From the IMG/VR virus record IMGVR_UViG_3300035199_001179, positions 1 to 28,174 of that record: a stretch of DNA of 28,174 nucleotides; one strand, written 5' to 3'. How positions within the stretch are numbered: the stretch's first letter is position 1; every line of letters starts with the position of its first letter. Below are positions 1 through 16,441 of the stretch, piece after piece. The stretch comes from a virus. A program made the position numbers and the translations under genes. Below the pieces are notes generated by a model. The model searched no databases, was not told the DNA's origin, and was given only the letters and a program-made list of their open reading frames with translations.

Positions 1-10
1 ATGTTTCGAG

Positions 11-36
11 ACGGCGGTCCTTTGGGCCGCCGTTTT
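11..36 (+). terminator. Intrinsic terminator of a gene left of the window
   Basis: A 9-bp GC-rich stem CGGCGGTCC/GGGCCGCCG (one T-G pair) closes a TTT loop and is followed by TTTTC. This is a classic rho-independent terminator on the + strand. It probably ends the transcription unit whose last gene lies just outside the window. Confidence 0.85.
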
Positions 37-166
37 CGTTTGTGGGTCGTGCCGGCGGGCAGAACGATCAAGGTGTTTCCAAATAGACCCGTGCGGCTTT
101 ATGGTGGCGCCGCTTCTGCCGCGCATGAGTCGCGGTGCGTGTTTTTCGGCACGCATATCTCCATGG

Positions 167-208
167 GGCCCCATGGCGAAATTGGTAAACGCAGCAGACT
201 TAAAATCT
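167..208 (+). other. tRNA-Leu(TAA)-like 5' half, candidate attP core
   Basis: The bases from 174 read like the D-arm and anticodon arm of a bacterial tRNA-Leu: TGGCG, an AAATTGGTAAA loop, CGC closing the D stem, then GCAGA-CTTAAAA-TCT with anticodon TAA at 201-203. Bases 167-173 would be the 5' acceptor strand. The resemblance stops at about 208: the anticodon stem has one mismatch (A209), and no T-arm or 3' acceptor strand follows. It is therefore a tRNA fragment, not a working tRNA gene. In cyanophage P-SSP7, also T7-like, a 42-bp piece identical to host tRNA-Leu lies near the integrase gene, ahead of the RNA polymerase gene, and is thought to be the attachment site. The same position here suggests an attP, but no integrase is visible in the window, so this remains inference. 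Confidence 0.5.
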
Positions 209-244
209 ACCATATTTACATGCACATGTGGATACAGTTAGAAG

Positions 245-273
245 AACCCTCGGTTTTCACCGGGGGTTTCTTG
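245..273 (+). terminator. Intrinsic terminator
   Basis: The stem AACCCTCGG/CCGGGGGTT (9 bp, one T-G pair) has a TTTTCA loop and is followed by TCTT. This is a typical phage intrinsic terminator. It lies between the tRNA-Leu-like fragment and the promoter module of the polymerase gene. Confidence 0.8.
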
Positions 274-410
274 CATTTGGACTGCCGTGGAATTAATCCA
301 CAGTTGGATTAGCTTTGCTGCATTCCATGCCTACTGCTGCAGTGGCGGCAGCAGGGCTCCAGCAGCGCAGTCTAATGCGTTCACTTCACACCAATTGATT
401 AGCTGAATGT

Positions 411-560: not shown

Positions 561-3017
561 ATGTATGACTCTAAGTTAGACAGACAGATTGAACTCGAAG
601 AGGAAATGTTTGGGATGGGTATCGAGAGATACCGCAAGCAGGTGGCAGAGTTGGAACAGTCAGGTGGAGGGTCATCCATGCGACCAGCAGTTCGTCTGAT
701 GAAACAGGCCATTGATCCAGTGTCTACAGGCATTGCTGATTTTGTGTCATCGGTCTACGAGACCAAGCGGGGGAGGAGAGCCACAGCCGCTGTCTACCTC
801 AAGGACATGGACCCTGATGTCGTGGCATTCATCGCCCTGAAGGTGATCTTCGATTGTCTCACCAAGAACATGATGCTGCAGAGCTGCGCGACCACCATTG
901 GTATGCGCTTGAATGAGGAGCAGACATACACTGCGTTCTCAGAGCAGCACCCTGGCTATTTCAACCACATGTCACGGGAGCAGTCCTCACACACACGGCA
1001 CCGCCGTACAGCTATGAACCACGCCGCCAAGCGGCTGGATGTCCACTCATCCCACTGGCCGGTGACTGACCAGCTGCATGTGGGCAACAAGCTGATCGAA
1101 ATCATTATGGATAAGACCGGCTTGGTTCACATTGACAAGCGCACGGTGGGCAAGAATGACACGCGCATGTATGTGGTTCCCACGGCAGAGACAATGAAGT
1201 GGATCGAAGAGTGTCACTCGTTCTGTGAGGTGCTCAACCCGGTCTATATGCCGTGCATCGTGCCGCCTAAGCCTTGGGTCAACCCACTCGACGGTGGCTA
1301 CCACACGGACGCTTTCGGCCCTACAGCCTTCGTTAAACGGGGTGAAGGTATGCACCACAAGAACTACCTTGAGGAGCTGGGCAATCATTGGGAGCAAATG
1401 GAGCCTGTTTGGAGGTCAGTCAACGCCATGCAATCCACGGCTTGGGGGATCAACCCTGACGTGCTGCGCGTTGCGCGGGAAATCTGGGATGATGGGGCAG
1501 GGGTTGCTGGTCTACCAATGCTCAACGACATAGAGATACCCTCCGCGCCTATCCCGGCTGGGACACGCAAGGAAGATTTCACGCCGGAACAGAAGGAAAG
1601 CTTCATCGCGTGGAAGCGCTCTGCCACTGCGCTCTACACAGCGAACACCAAGATGCGGTCAAAGCGCCTGCAACAGGCGAAGATCATCGCCACAGCCTCA
1701 CGTTTTGAGGACGAGGAGTCGATCTACTTCCCGTACCAGCTTGATTTCCGGGGCCGGGTGTACGCCATACCGACCTACCTCAACCCACAAGGGAACGACT
1801 TGGCTAAGGGTTTGCTCCGCTTTGGTGAAGGGAAGCCTATTGCAACAGGTGAGGCGGCTGGTTGGCTTGCTGTTCACGGGGCGAATTGCTTCGGGTTCGA
1901 CAAGGCTGCTTTGGCAGATCGTATCCAATGGGTTCTCGACAACGAGGAGTCTATTCTTCGTGTCGCAAAGCATCCACATGAGGAACAGTTCTGGATGAGG
2001 GCAGATAGCCCCTTTTGCTTCCTCGCGTTCTGCTTTGAGTGGGCTGGCTGGCATGCTGAGGGTTATGACTTCGTGTCTCACCTCCCAATTGCGATGGACG
2101 CCAGTTGCTCAGGTCTACAGCACTTCTCAGCCATGCTGCGCGACCCTGTCGGTGGTAAGGCGGTGAACCTTGCGCCTGCTGAGGAGAAGCAGGACATCTA
2201 CCAGACCGTTGCGGACGCGGTGATCACAAAGCTGGCGGCAACCAACACCGTGATTGGTGCGAAGTGGTTAGGCTTCGGGATCAACCGGAAGACAACCAAG
2301 CGTTCGGTCATGGTGCTGCCTTATGGCGGGACGTATCGCTCGTGCGCAGCGTATGTCGAAGAGTGGTTCATGGAGATGGTCAACGAGGGTGGTGCTCTCG
2401 ACCCCTTCGACGATCTCGATGAGTTCAAAGAAGCGAAGAAGATGCTGGCGGGCTTCGTGTGGTCAAGCATGAGTGAGACTGTCATCGCGGCGCGTGAGGC
2501 GATGGGTTGGCTGAAGAAGGCAGCAAGCTGCCTTGCGAAAGAGCAGACACCTATTCACTGGACGACACCTGCAGGCTTCCTCGTTATGCAGGCGTACCCA
2601 GAGGTGGAGCAACAGCGCGTTAAGACCAAGTTCGGAGACTCGATCATGAAGCTCTCTCTCCGTAACGAGACAGACATTCTGTCAAAGCGGCGGCAGTCTC
2701 AGGCTATTGCCCCCAACTTCGTTCACTCAATGGATGCCAGCCACATGTTCCTCACTGTGGACTTGGGGTTGGACAATGGTGTTTCAGACTACGCCATGAT
2801 CCACGACAGCTTCGGTACACACGCCTGTGACACACAGATGCTGGCAGCGTGTATCCGCGAAGCCTTTGTCGCCATGTATGAAGACAACAACGTGCTGCAG
2901 CAGTTCGCTGATCAGGTCACACCCATCCTCACAGAAGGTAATGACCTCCCATCACTCCCGGTGCAAGGCGACTTGGACCTATCAGGTGTGCGGGACTCCA
3001 CGTTTTTCTTTGCCTGA
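561..3017 (+). CDS. Single-subunit phage DNA-directed RNA polymerase (T7 gp1-like)
   Basis: This 818-aa protein (T7 gp1 is 883) transcribes the middle and late genes from the CACTAAA-type promoters in this window. The family motifs are clear. YFPYQLDFRGRVY is followed by NPQGND. The catalytic Asp is D513 in MDASCSGLQHF. K580 and Y588 in KRSVMVLPYGG match T7 K631 and Y639. The second catalytic Asp is D749 in IHDSFG. The chain ends FFFA, like the FAFA foot of T7. The promoter-recognition loop should lie in the stretch between TTPAGF and IAPNFVHS. The ATG at 561 follows AGAGGAAAGAG. Two promoter modules bracket the gene, so it probably amplifies its own expression. Confidence 0.97.
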   Translation: MYDSKLDRQIELEEEMFGMGIERYRKQVAELEQSGGGSSMRPAVRLMKQAIDPVSTGIADFVSSVYETKRGRRATAAVYLKDMDPDVVAFIALKVIFDCLTKNMMLQSCATTIGMRLNEEQTYTAFSEQHPGYFNHMSREQSSHTRHRRTAMNHAAKRLDVHSSHWPVTDQLHVGNKLIEIIMDKTGLVHIDKRTVGKNDTRMYVVPTAETMKWIEECHSFCEVLNPVYMPCIVPPKPWVNPLDGGYHTDAFGPTAFVKRGEGMHHKNYLEELGNHWEQMEPVWRSVNAMQSTAWGINPDVLRVAREIWDDGAGVAGLPMLNDIEIPSAPIPAGTRKEDFTPEQKESFIAWKRSATALYTANTKMRSKRLQQAKIIATASRFEDEESIYFPYQLDFRGRVYAIPTYLNPQGNDLAKGLLRFGEGKPIATGEAAGWLAVHGANCFGFDKAALADRIQWVLDNEESILRVAKHPHEEQFWMRADSPFCFLAFCFEWAGWHAEGYDFVSHLPIAMDASCSGLQHFSAMLRDPVGGKAVNLAPAEEKQDIYQTVADAVITKLAATNTVIGAKWLGFGINRKTTKRSVMVLPYGGTYRSCAAYVEEWFMEMVNEGGALDPFDDLDEFKEAKKMLAGFVWSSMSETVIAAREAMGWLKKAASCLAKEQTPIHWTTPAGFLVMQAYPEVEQQRVKTKFGDSIMKLSLRNETDILSKRRQSQAIAPNFVHSMDASHMFLTVDLGLDNGVSDYAMIHDSFGTHACDTQMLAACIREAFVAMYEDNNVLQQFADQVTPILTEGNDLPSLPVQGDLDLSGVRDSTFFFA

Positions 3018-8824: not shown

Positions 8825-10671
8825 TGTCCCGCTTCATCCTCGACTGCGAGACCAACGGTCTGTTGGACACTATGGACGTGATCCATAGCCTCTGCATGAA
8901 AGACTTGGACACGGGGGTGACAATTTCCGCATGTGACCGTCACTACACCAGCGACAGCGCTGACGTGGTTACGACGTTCGGGATCGAAGAAGCACTTCGT
9001 GTCGCGATGGAAGCTGGCGAACTCATAGGGCACAACCTCCTGAAGTTCGACATCCCGGCACTCCAGATTGTCTACCCATGGTTCAAACCCAAGGGCAAGA
9101 TTACTGACACCCTCATCCTCTCCCGCCTGATCTGGTCGGATATGAAGGAAGCAGACTTCGCGTTCCGCAAGAAGGTACGTGGCAAGAACTTCCCCGGTCA
9201 CATGATCGGCAGGCACTCGCTAGAGTCTTGGGGTCTACGCCTTCAGTTCCCGAAGGATGACTATAAAGCGCTCGCTAAAGAGGCCGGTGTCCACCCTTGG
9301 GCTGAGTGGTGGCCGACGATGCAGACCTACTGTGAACGGGATGTCGAGGTCACTGGCAAACTCTACGAACTCATCCAGAGCAAGAACTACTCGGAAGAAG
9401 CGATAGAGCTTGAGCACGACTTTGCTGACATCATCTTTCAACAAGAGCAGGTCGGCTTTCCGTTTGACGTGAAGAAGGCAGAGGCTCTCTACCAGAAGCT
9501 TGCTACCCGCCGTGACCAGATCGGCGAAGAACTGCAGGAGGTATTCCCTCCGCTTGAAGTGAGAACACCGTTCACACCGAAGGCCAATAACAGCAAGTTC
9601 AACTACCAGAAGGGTGTGCCAACTTTCAAGACCAAGACCGTTGTCTTCAACCCTGGCTCCCGTGACCACATCGCGGCTCGCTTGAAGTTGAACTATGGCT
9701 GGGAACCTAAAGCCTTCACGGCTGAGGGCAAAGCGCAGGTCGATGAGCAGATACTCTCAAAGCTGCCGTACCCTGAAGCGCCTATCCTCACTGAGTCTCT
9801 GCTTCTGACCAAACGTATCGGCCAGTTGGCTGAAGGTCGGCAGGCATGGCTCAAGCTGGAGAAGGCTGGCCGCATCTACGGACAGGTAGTGACGAACGGT
9901 ACGCCAACCGCTCGGTGTACCCACTCCCGACCTAACATCACGCAGGTTCCTGCGTCAGGCTCGCTATATGGCGAGGATTGCCGGTCACTGTTCCACGCCC
10001 CCACTGGCTATAAGCTCGTAGGCGCTGACGCATCCGGTCTGGAACTGCGCTGTTTGGCTCACTACATGGCCCGCTACGATGGTGGTGCTTATGCCAAGGA
10101 AATCCTTGAGGGTGATGTTCACTCTGTAAACCAGCACGCTGCTGGCCTGCCTACTAGAGATAACGCCAAGACGTTTATCTATGCGTTCCTCTATGGGGCC
10201 GGTGACGCCAAGATTGGCGAGATCATCAAGGCTGGAGCGAAAGAGGGTAAGCGGATCAAGGAAGAGTTCCTCCGCAAGACACCCGCGCTCAAAGCTCTCA
10301 AGCGTGACGTGCAGGCTGCATACAAAACTAAGAAGGGCCTGCTCGTTGGTATCGACGGTCGAGTTCTTCACTGCCGTTCATCTCACTCTGCGTTGAACAC
10401 ACTGCTGCAAGCCAGCGGTGCTCTGTTGGTAAAGAAGGCGACTGTTCTTCTTTATCAAGACCTATCCACACAAGGATATAAATTCGGGACTGACTGGTCG
10501 TTGGTCGCTCACATTCATGACGAAGTGCAAATGCTCGTCAAAGAAGGATTGGAAGATCATGTTGGACAATGTGCAGTACGGGCATTTCAACGAGCAGGTG
10601 AACACTTCAACTGGCGTTGCCCCACAGACGGCGAGTTCAAGGTCGGCAACAATTGGGCAGAGACACACTAA
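8824..10671 (+). CDS. Family A DNA polymerase with 3'-5' exonuclease (T7 gp5-like)
   Basis: This 615-aa replicative polymerase is clearly shorter than T7 gp5 (704). The exonuclease domain has D7/E9 in LDCETNG, HNLLKFDIPAL and DTLILSRL. The polymerase domain has motif A GADASGLELRCLAHYMARYD (D402), motif B RDNAKTFIYAFLYG (K449, Y453; the Tyr favours dideoxynucleotide acceptance in T7) and motif C HDE (D566). In the thumb, only about 35 residues (241-275) separate the thumb helix from FNPGSRDHI, where T7 carries the longer thioredoxin-binding insert. Dependence on host thioredoxin is therefore doubtful. Confidence 0.96.
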   Translation: MSRFILDCETNGLLDTMDVIHSLCMKDLDTGVTISACDRHYTSDSADVVTTFGIEEALRVAMEAGELIGHNLLKFDIPALQIVYPWFKPKGKITDTLILSRLIWSDMKEADFAFRKKVRGKNFPGHMIGRHSLESWGLRLQFPKDDYKALAKEAGVHPWAEWWPTMQTYCERDVEVTGKLYELIQSKNYSEEAIELEHDFADIIFQQEQVGFPFDVKKAEALYQKLATRRDQIGEELQEVFPPLEVRTPFTPKANNSKFNYQKGVPTFKTKTVVFNPGSRDHIAARLKLNYGWEPKAFTAEGKAQVDEQILSKLPYPEAPILTESLLLTKRIGQLAEGRQAWLKLEKAGRIYGQVVTNGTPTARCTHSRPNITQVPASGSLYGEDCRSLFHAPTGYKLVGADASGLELRCLAHYMARYDGGAYAKEILEGDVHSVNQHAAGLPTRDNAKTFIYAFLYGAGDAKIGEIIKAGAKEGKRIKEEFLRKTPALKALKRDVQAAYKTKKGLLVGIDGRVLHCRSSHSALNTLLQASGALLVKKATVLLYQDLSTQGYKFGTDWSLVAHIHDEVQMLVKEGLEDHVGQCAVRAFQRAGEHFNWRCPTDGEFKVGNNWAETH

Positions 10672-11218
10672 CACCTGTCGCCAGTGCAATGTGACGCTCG
10701 TACTGGGTGAGAACTGGACTGAAGGCAATATGCACCAGCGCCAGTACCGATGCCGCTCGTGCGTCAAGAAGGTCAATGCCCTTCGTATCTTTAAGAACGG
10801 CAAGTATCTCGGAATGTCGCGGGAAGCTCTGCTTCACATGATTGAGAAGGCGGATCATATCAAGGTCCGTCAGGTTCATCGTGTGCAGAAGCTCTACAAG
10901 AATGCCGACTCCAAGTATGTGTCAATCCCAGAGGGGTACATCTACGCGGTGATCAATGATGCTTGGCCTGGGTGGTACAAGATCGGGACCGCGTTGCTTC
11001 CAGAGAAGCGGCTCGCCTCCTACCAAACGTCTACTCCATTCCGTGACTTCAAGCTGGTCTATGAAGCGTTCACTACTGACCGCCTTGTGACTGAGCGTAA
11101 GGCCCACAACTTCTTCGATGGCATCGCAGCTGATCGGCGGGGTGAGTGGTTCTACGTCGAAGACTCGGAAATCGTCGCAAAATACTTCAACCACGTTCAC
11201 CCAAGGGAGGAATGCTGA
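10559..11218 (+). CDS. Zinc-ribbon plus T5orf172 / GIY-YIG-like nuclease
   Basis: This protein is up to 219 aa. A zinc-ribbon-like part (CRQC...CRSC, about residues 40-67) is followed by a basic linker and a domain beginning GYIYAVINDAWPGWYKIGTALLPEKR, then ERKAHNFFDG...GEWFYVE. This matches the T5orf172/MUG113 branch of the GIY-YIG nuclease superfamily (GYIY, YKIG, Arg and Glu spacing). Such free-standing genes are often homing endonucleases, and this one abuts DNA polymerase, a classic target. The start is uncertain: ATG 10559 or GTG 10598 lie inside the polymerase gene in another frame; ATT 10652 would overlap least. Confidence 0.75.
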   Translation: MLDNVQYGHFNEQVNTSTGVAPQTASSRSATIGQRHTNTCRQCNVTLVLGENWTEGNMHQRQYRCRSCVKKVNALRIFKNGKYLGMSREALLHMIEKADHIKVRQVHRVQKLYKNADSKYVSIPEGYIYAVINDAWPGWYKIGTALLPEKRLASYQTSTPFRDFKLVYEAFTTDRLVTERKAHNFFDGIAADRRGEWFYVEDSEIVAKYFNHVHPREEC

Positions 11219-16273: not shown

Positions 16274-16364
16274 ACGCCTGTAGCTCAACGGTTAGAGCAA
16301 CCCGCACCTTGTTGATCTTGGTAGTTAGAGGGAGATGTCGGTTCGACTCCGACTAGGTGTTCCA
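16274..16364 (+). tRNA. tRNA-like gene with undetermined anticodon (91 nt)
   Basis: The acceptor stem pairs 16274-16280 with 16354-16360 (7 bp, including G-T pairs). TA and the D-arm GCTC/GAGC follow (16283-16298). The T-arm GTCGG-TTCGACT-CCGAC is perfect (16337-16353), and TCCA ends the gene. Between 16299 and 16336, however, the 38 nt do not give a standard 5-bp anticodon stem with a 7-nt loop. It may be a class II tRNA with a long variable arm, an intron-bearing tRNA or a decayed gene. A single base separates it from the tRNA-Asn. Confidence 0.65.
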
Positions 16365-16365
16365 A

Positions 16366-16441
16366 TGGGAAGTAGCTCAGCTGGCAGAGCACCGCACTGT
16401 TAATGCGGCGGTCGCAGGTTCGATCCCTGCCTTCCCAACCA
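16366..16441 (+). tRNA. tRNA-Asn (GTT)
   Basis: This is a complete 76-nt cloverleaf with CCA encoded. The acceptor TGGGAAG pairs with CTTCCCA, the D-stem is GCTC/GAGC, the anticodon arm is CCGCA-CTGTTAA-TGCGG with GTT at 16399-16401, and the T-arm is GCAGG-TTCGATC-CCTGC. Discriminator A and CCA follow. Confidence 0.93.

Follow-up and report, generated by a model that had tools for sequence, protein, structure and literature searches.

The window, by which we mean the whole stretch of DNA analyzed here, is an entire viral record of 28,174 bases; it is linear and probably a fragment, and the sequence to the left of base 1 is absent. It contains a T7-like block that extends from the RNA polymerase through the tail fibre. 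No match to an integrase was found anywhere in the 28,174 bases of this fragmentary record, and its tRNA genes are limited to tRNA-Arg(CCT) and tRNA-Asn(GTT), which are adjacent and lie between head genes at 16274-16441. A T5orf172/MUG113 domain protein (GIY-YIG-like family) is encoded at 10517-11215, overlapping the end of the DNA polymerase gene, and weakly matches the candidate defence model PDC-S57. The features at the left end of the window are as follows.

1-194, + strand: probable host DNA, extending to the recombination core; putative host-side flank of attL
8-36, + strand: terminator-like hairpin with a 13-bp stem (-21.9 kcal/mol, RNAfold), running into TTTTC
167-173, + strand: acceptor-stem 5' strand GGCCCCA, assigned by its position within the tRNA and matched by no homologue
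174-208, + strand: D arm and anticodon arm of tRNA-Leu(TAA), cut in the 3' strand of the anticodon stem
195-208, + strand: likely recombination core CAGACTTAAAATCT, by analogy with the 14-bp core at the same tRNA positions in prophage G309
209-560, + strand: phage-side arm from the core to the RNA polymerase, laid out as in relatives
220-233, + strand: repeat copy ATGCACATGTGGAT, a candidate operator for MarR or arm site of the integrase
244-269, + strand: terminator-like hairpin on the phage side
296-309, + strand: repeat copy ATCCACAGTTGGAT
448-461, + strand: repeat copy ATCCACATGGGGAT
561-3017, + strand: T7-like single-subunit RNA polymerase (PF00940, 7.6e-106; PF14700, 4.6e-23)

From position 167 the sequence reads GGCCCCA, TGGCGAAATTGGTAAACGC (starting at 174), AG, and CAGACTTAAAATCT, which ends at 208 and is followed by ACCATATTTACATG. 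Positions 174-207 showed 0 mismatches to the tRNA-Leu consensus for the D arm and anticodon arm, and 100 dinucleotide-preserving shuffles of the window yielded 0 consensus matches, even with 3 or fewer mismatches allowed. A scan of 84,980 species genomes found the exact 36 nt at 173-208 in one of them, as part of a complete tRNA-Leu(TAA); the scan pattern started one base inside the acceptor stem and may have lost matches. Identity between 173-211 and the tRNA-Leu(TAA) of that genome was 97% (E = 5.7e-12). The preliminary description had placed a fragment of tRNA-Leu(TAA), comprising the D and anticodon arms, at 167-208. Consensus match, shuffles, and genome scan show this to be correct: the tRNA-Leu half is real, and chance is excluded. 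It is also not a functional tRNA, as had been claimed, because ARAGORN called no tRNA at 167-208 and the Rfam tRNA model scored the half at 17.1 bits, under the 29-bit cut-off.

For the acceptor-like strand at 167-173, no homologue was detectable. Positions 161-176 constitute a perfect 16-nt palindrome, CCATGGGGCCCCATGG, that overlaps the acceptor strand of the half. The genome with the 36-nt match is a metagenome-assembled genome of the Rubricoccaceae (MAG L003). The acceptor strand is GCCGGGA in the MAG versus GGCCCCA in the window. Because of this difference, the MAG was rejected as an established host.

T7-like phages are usually regarded as strictly lytic, also when phages are picked for therapy. 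The polymerase encoded in the window is 36 to 45% identical to those of LUZ100, CRP-125, Pasto, RHEph01, Lo5R7ANS, YIMV22061, and pelagiphages. In the polymerase tree it lies inside an integrase-bearing clade, nearest to CRP-125 (L004), which has both MarR and integrase. With its single-subunit RNA polymerase and T7-like gene order, the phage groups with the temperate T7-like Autographiviridae (MarR-int-RNAP). An integrase is located upstream of the RNA polymerase in all eight close relatives whose annotation was examined, usually accompanied by a MarR-like regulator, and most of the eight have a complete tRNA-Leu near the integrase. The integrase gene of YIMV22061 is annotated as hypothetical and matches the LUZ100 integrase. 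Because every close relative examined carries an integrase at this place, the site in the window is the attachment site of a T7-like phage that is or once was temperate, which supports the earlier suggestion that the phage is temperate or descended from one. It could also be a relic of past integration in a phage that has since shed the integrase gene and become strictly lytic, and the absence of an integrase from the available 28 kb is in line with this. However, the 34-nt match to the D-arm and anticodon-arm consensus is perfect and shows no decay, all close relatives examined have an integrase, and the record misses part of the genome, making a relic very improbable.

A search for the same phage by the window polymerase alone found nothing, so an alignment-based search was needed; no viral contig with the phage side of the junction or with the exact tRNA half was found. 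Relatives were gathered by alignment and single-protein searches, giving 80 loci by polymerase, 50 by portal, and 80 by integrase. Their records occur in two orders, with the integrase either directly before the polymerase (free-phage order) or at the opposite end (prophage order). From these, 100 non-redundant loci in free-phage order served as the comparison set. In thirteen of the 100, a tRNA-Leu 5' half separates the integrase from the polymerase, and the examined stretch has no complete tRNA-Leu. At each of these 13 attP sites, 53 to 122 nt lie between the integrase stop codon and T8 of the tRNA, and the 173 nt preceding the half are free of terminator-like hairpins.

The spacing in the window is different from that of a P-SSP7-type attP. 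The 173 nt preceding its half have a GC content of 0.61, contain no recognizable integrase, and include the hairpin at 8-36; no integrase C terminus was recognized in any frame of the left flank. On account of this contrast with 13 of 13 attP sites, we read the window as attL, the left junction of a T7-like temperate phage that is probably integrated in a bacterial tRNA-Leu(TAA) gene; bases 1 to about 194 would accordingly be host DNA. The hairpin would then probably end an upstream host gene. In phages and plasmids, the left flank has no sequence match beyond the tRNA half and a terminator-like stretch. The preliminary description had instead proposed an attP, with an integrase gene ending at a terminator at 11-36. 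The tRNA attachment site itself stands, given the integrases of relatives and the case of P-SSP7, in which the claimed parallel arrangement with a tRNA-Leu 5' half is confirmed (PMC8776855). An attP with an integrase ending at this terminator is unlikely, and attL fits better. As a free-phage attP, the tRNA-Leu(TAA) 5' half would be carried by the phage downstream of an integrase lying just left of base 1 and would rebuild the host tRNA at the integrase-side junction. Thirteen relatives, P-SSP7 included, have such an attP, and integration via such a site was shown experimentally in the cyanophages S-TIP37 and P-SSP7 (PMC8776855). In the window, however, such an arrangement would require more than 173 nt between the end of the integrase and the half, compared with 53 to 122 nt in all 13 relatives, and their attP sites have nothing corresponding to the hairpin at 8-36. 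We therefore regard the free-phage attP as a rather unlikely alternative.

Several observations count against the attL reading. Bases 1-166 had no match in the host genomes searched, which sampled one phylum; window positions 1-320, compared with 296 genomes of the phylum of the Rubricoccaceae MAG, returned tRNA matches and, apart from these, two short ones within 1-75. One frame of the left flank has a stop codon at 84-86, so an unusual integrase tail is possible there. The GGCCCCA acceptor strand is unusual and sits in the 16-nt palindrome.

The phage side of the junction counts for attL. The three repeats between the core and the polymerase are palindromes resembling ATCCACATGNGGAT, and their starts are exactly 76 and 152 nt apart. 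No copy of the ATCCACATGNGGAT form occurs left of the core; all are on the phage side. Prophage G309 has one such repeat, ATCCACATGTGG, at the same place. The repeats could serve as operators for MarR, such operators having been proposed in this group (PMC10134795), or as arm sites of the integrase. We also considered that the tRNA-like stretch and the hairpin at 244-269 give rise to a small RNA with a regulatory or decoy function. Although 150-280 folds better than shuffles (z -2.66), the energy derives largely from the terminator and the palindrome, no sigma-70-like promoter was found, and the minimum-free-energy fold lacks the tRNA arms. The attachment-site reading moreover explains the truncation point and its conservation. 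With no promoter and the tRNA arms not folded, this scarcely credible reading was rejected.

Relatives caught as prophages have the layout expected of an attL. The clearest case is G309 (IMG/VR 3300048853_000016), read as a prophage, in which polymerase and integrase occupy opposite ends of the record. Its left end, GCGGGTA-TGGTGAAATTGGTAGACACGC-CAGATTTAGGTTCT-ACCATCC, is the 5' half of a tRNA-Leu(TAG) followed by phage DNA. At its right end, 111 nt past the integrase stop codon, CAGATTTAGGTTCT-GGTGCC...CCCGCACCA comprises the same 14-bp core and the tRNA 3' half. The host tRNA gene is split and rebuilt at neither end, and a complete tRNA-Leu(TAG) adjoins the integrase in the same record. The 43.8-kb record stops 126 and 125 nt away from the distal core edge at its two ends (L198 and L199), as would be expected of an assembly graph with k = 127 for a sample containing both integrated and empty sites. 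The same signature was sought in the window, where the 208 nt to the end of the core do not fit 125 to 126 nt; the signature is therefore no evidence here, and this, too, counts against attL. In a second prophage, L023 (record G002, from an isolate genome), a tRNA-Leu(TAA) half precedes the polymerase match by 350 bp, an open frame to the left of this half looks bacterial, and the integrase lies at the opposite end. Neither the matching right junction nor a complete tRNA was found in the L023 record. Its integrase match (52575-53603 of the record) contains an in-frame stop, and the prophage is possibly defective. Both G309 and L023 were sequenced as prophages and have the same layout as the window at the RNA polymerase end. 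In three further prophages (G003, L274, and L257), the integrase is followed by a severed host tRNA-Leu(TAA) 3' half, and a complete phage tRNA-Leu(TAA) is present. A short core with the host tRNA left unrebuilt is thus visible at both junctions in G309 and at the integrase-side junction in these three. L274, a relative of LUZ100, shares CTGCAACAGACTTAAAA with the gap between integrase and RNA polymerase of LUZ100 and then switches to the host 3' half, which maps the LUZ100 attachment core.

If the window is an attL, a tyrosine integrase encoded at the missing prophage end would have carried out recombination at a short core within the anticodon arm, at about 195-208. The 5' half of the host tRNA gene (167-208) would now precede phage DNA and the phage RNA polymerase, and its 3' half would lie beyond the other end of the prophage. 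The host tRNA would be either rebuilt at the far junction from a phage-borne 5' half or replaced by a complete tRNA-Leu(TAA) of the phage.

The comparison set illustrates both outcomes. Besides the 13 loci with a half, 33 of the 100 have a complete tRNA-Leu, and none of these 33 has a tRNA half. The remaining 54 have neither and may use other sites. Half and complete tRNA are mutually exclusive (Fisher p = 0.004, relatedness ignored), although for some of the 13 loci with a half (L051 and L086) the missing tRNA is weaker evidence because little sequence is available upstream of their integrases. An anticodon-loop core with the anticodon of the complete tRNA occurs elsewhere in the gap in 33 of 33 loci, on the plus strand in 32 and on the minus strand, like its tRNA, in one (L010). 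With the core motif relaxed once, since a stricter first pattern had missed several, and the relaxed pattern applied throughout, shuffled gaps gave an expected 4.0 of 33 loci with a core, and permutation of anticodon labels reached the observed count in 0 of 20,000 trials. The integrase tree implies about five switches between the two states, three of them forced by well-supported branches, and includes sister pairs of opposite state (L183 with a half and L185 with a complete tRNA; L247 with a half and L264 with a complete tRNA). In many relatives (L249, L253, L254, L235, L248, and L014), the complete tRNA-Leu lies directly after the integrase and ends about 10 to 15 nt before the core.

Judging from these sequence patterns, there are two mutually exclusive solutions, namely, an attP with a tRNA 5' half or a short-core attP in a phage whose own complete tRNA-Leu shares the anticodon. 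We tentatively propose that for T7-like temperate phages as a group these are interchangeable ways to reside in an essential tRNA-Leu gene and that the phage in the window could be of the bare-core type, having broken the host tRNA-Leu(TAA) and sustaining the cell with its own copy from the missing part of its genome. If this is true, tRNA-Leu genes of T7-like temperate phages are rescue genes and not leftovers of imprecise excision. The anticodon agreement in all 33 cases examined provides a testable rule for tRNA-Leu carriage by many of these phages. A tRNA-Leu junction can furthermore flag a phage or fragment as temperate even when the contig contains no integrase. That a phage tRNA-Leu replaces a lost host copy had been proposed before for one group of SAR11 pelagiphages (PMC6811365); no statement of a two-strategy rule or of an anticodon match for T7-like phages was found in the openly accessible literature.

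Among known systems, tRNA-dependent lysogeny was defined in actinobacteriophages (Guerrero-Bustamante and Hatfull 2024, PMC10865867). These phages are unrelated to that of the window, the evidence there is genetic whereas that presented here comes from sequence alone, and the terms T7-like and Autographiviridae are absent from that paper. Uv-Fonsiphage-EPL and the HTVC019P-group pelagiphages resemble the window in being T7-like prophages in a host tRNA-Leu. An 11-bp core was described for them, and their phage tRNA-Leu is said to replace the lost host function (PMC6811365). Unlike the window, they use tRNA-Leu(TAG) and SAR11 hosts; a rescue tRNA of the window phage, if it has one, is absent from the record. 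Pseudomonas phage LUZ100 (PMC10134795) and its prophage relative L274 share the order MarR-int-RNA polymerase and the tRNA-Leu(TAA) target. In contrast to the window, the attP of LUZ100 is a short core only and the phage carries a complete tRNA-Leu(TAA), which its authors ascribed to imprecise excision (PMC10134795), while in L274 the severed host 3' half is visible. P-SSP7 has the same half of the same tRNA in the same orientation and place, between integrase and RNA polymerase. There, however, the half belongs to a free phage, with T8 located 98 nt after the integrase stop codon, whereas the half in the window has no preceding integrase and its junction is probably that of an integrated phage. 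G309 likewise is T7-like, with a portal 53% identical to that of the window, and has a tRNA-Leu half before the RNA polymerase, a record that starts shortly left of this half, and ACCAT after the core. It differs in its anticodon, TAG instead of TAA, and in that both junctions and the complete phage tRNA-Leu(TAG) are visible.
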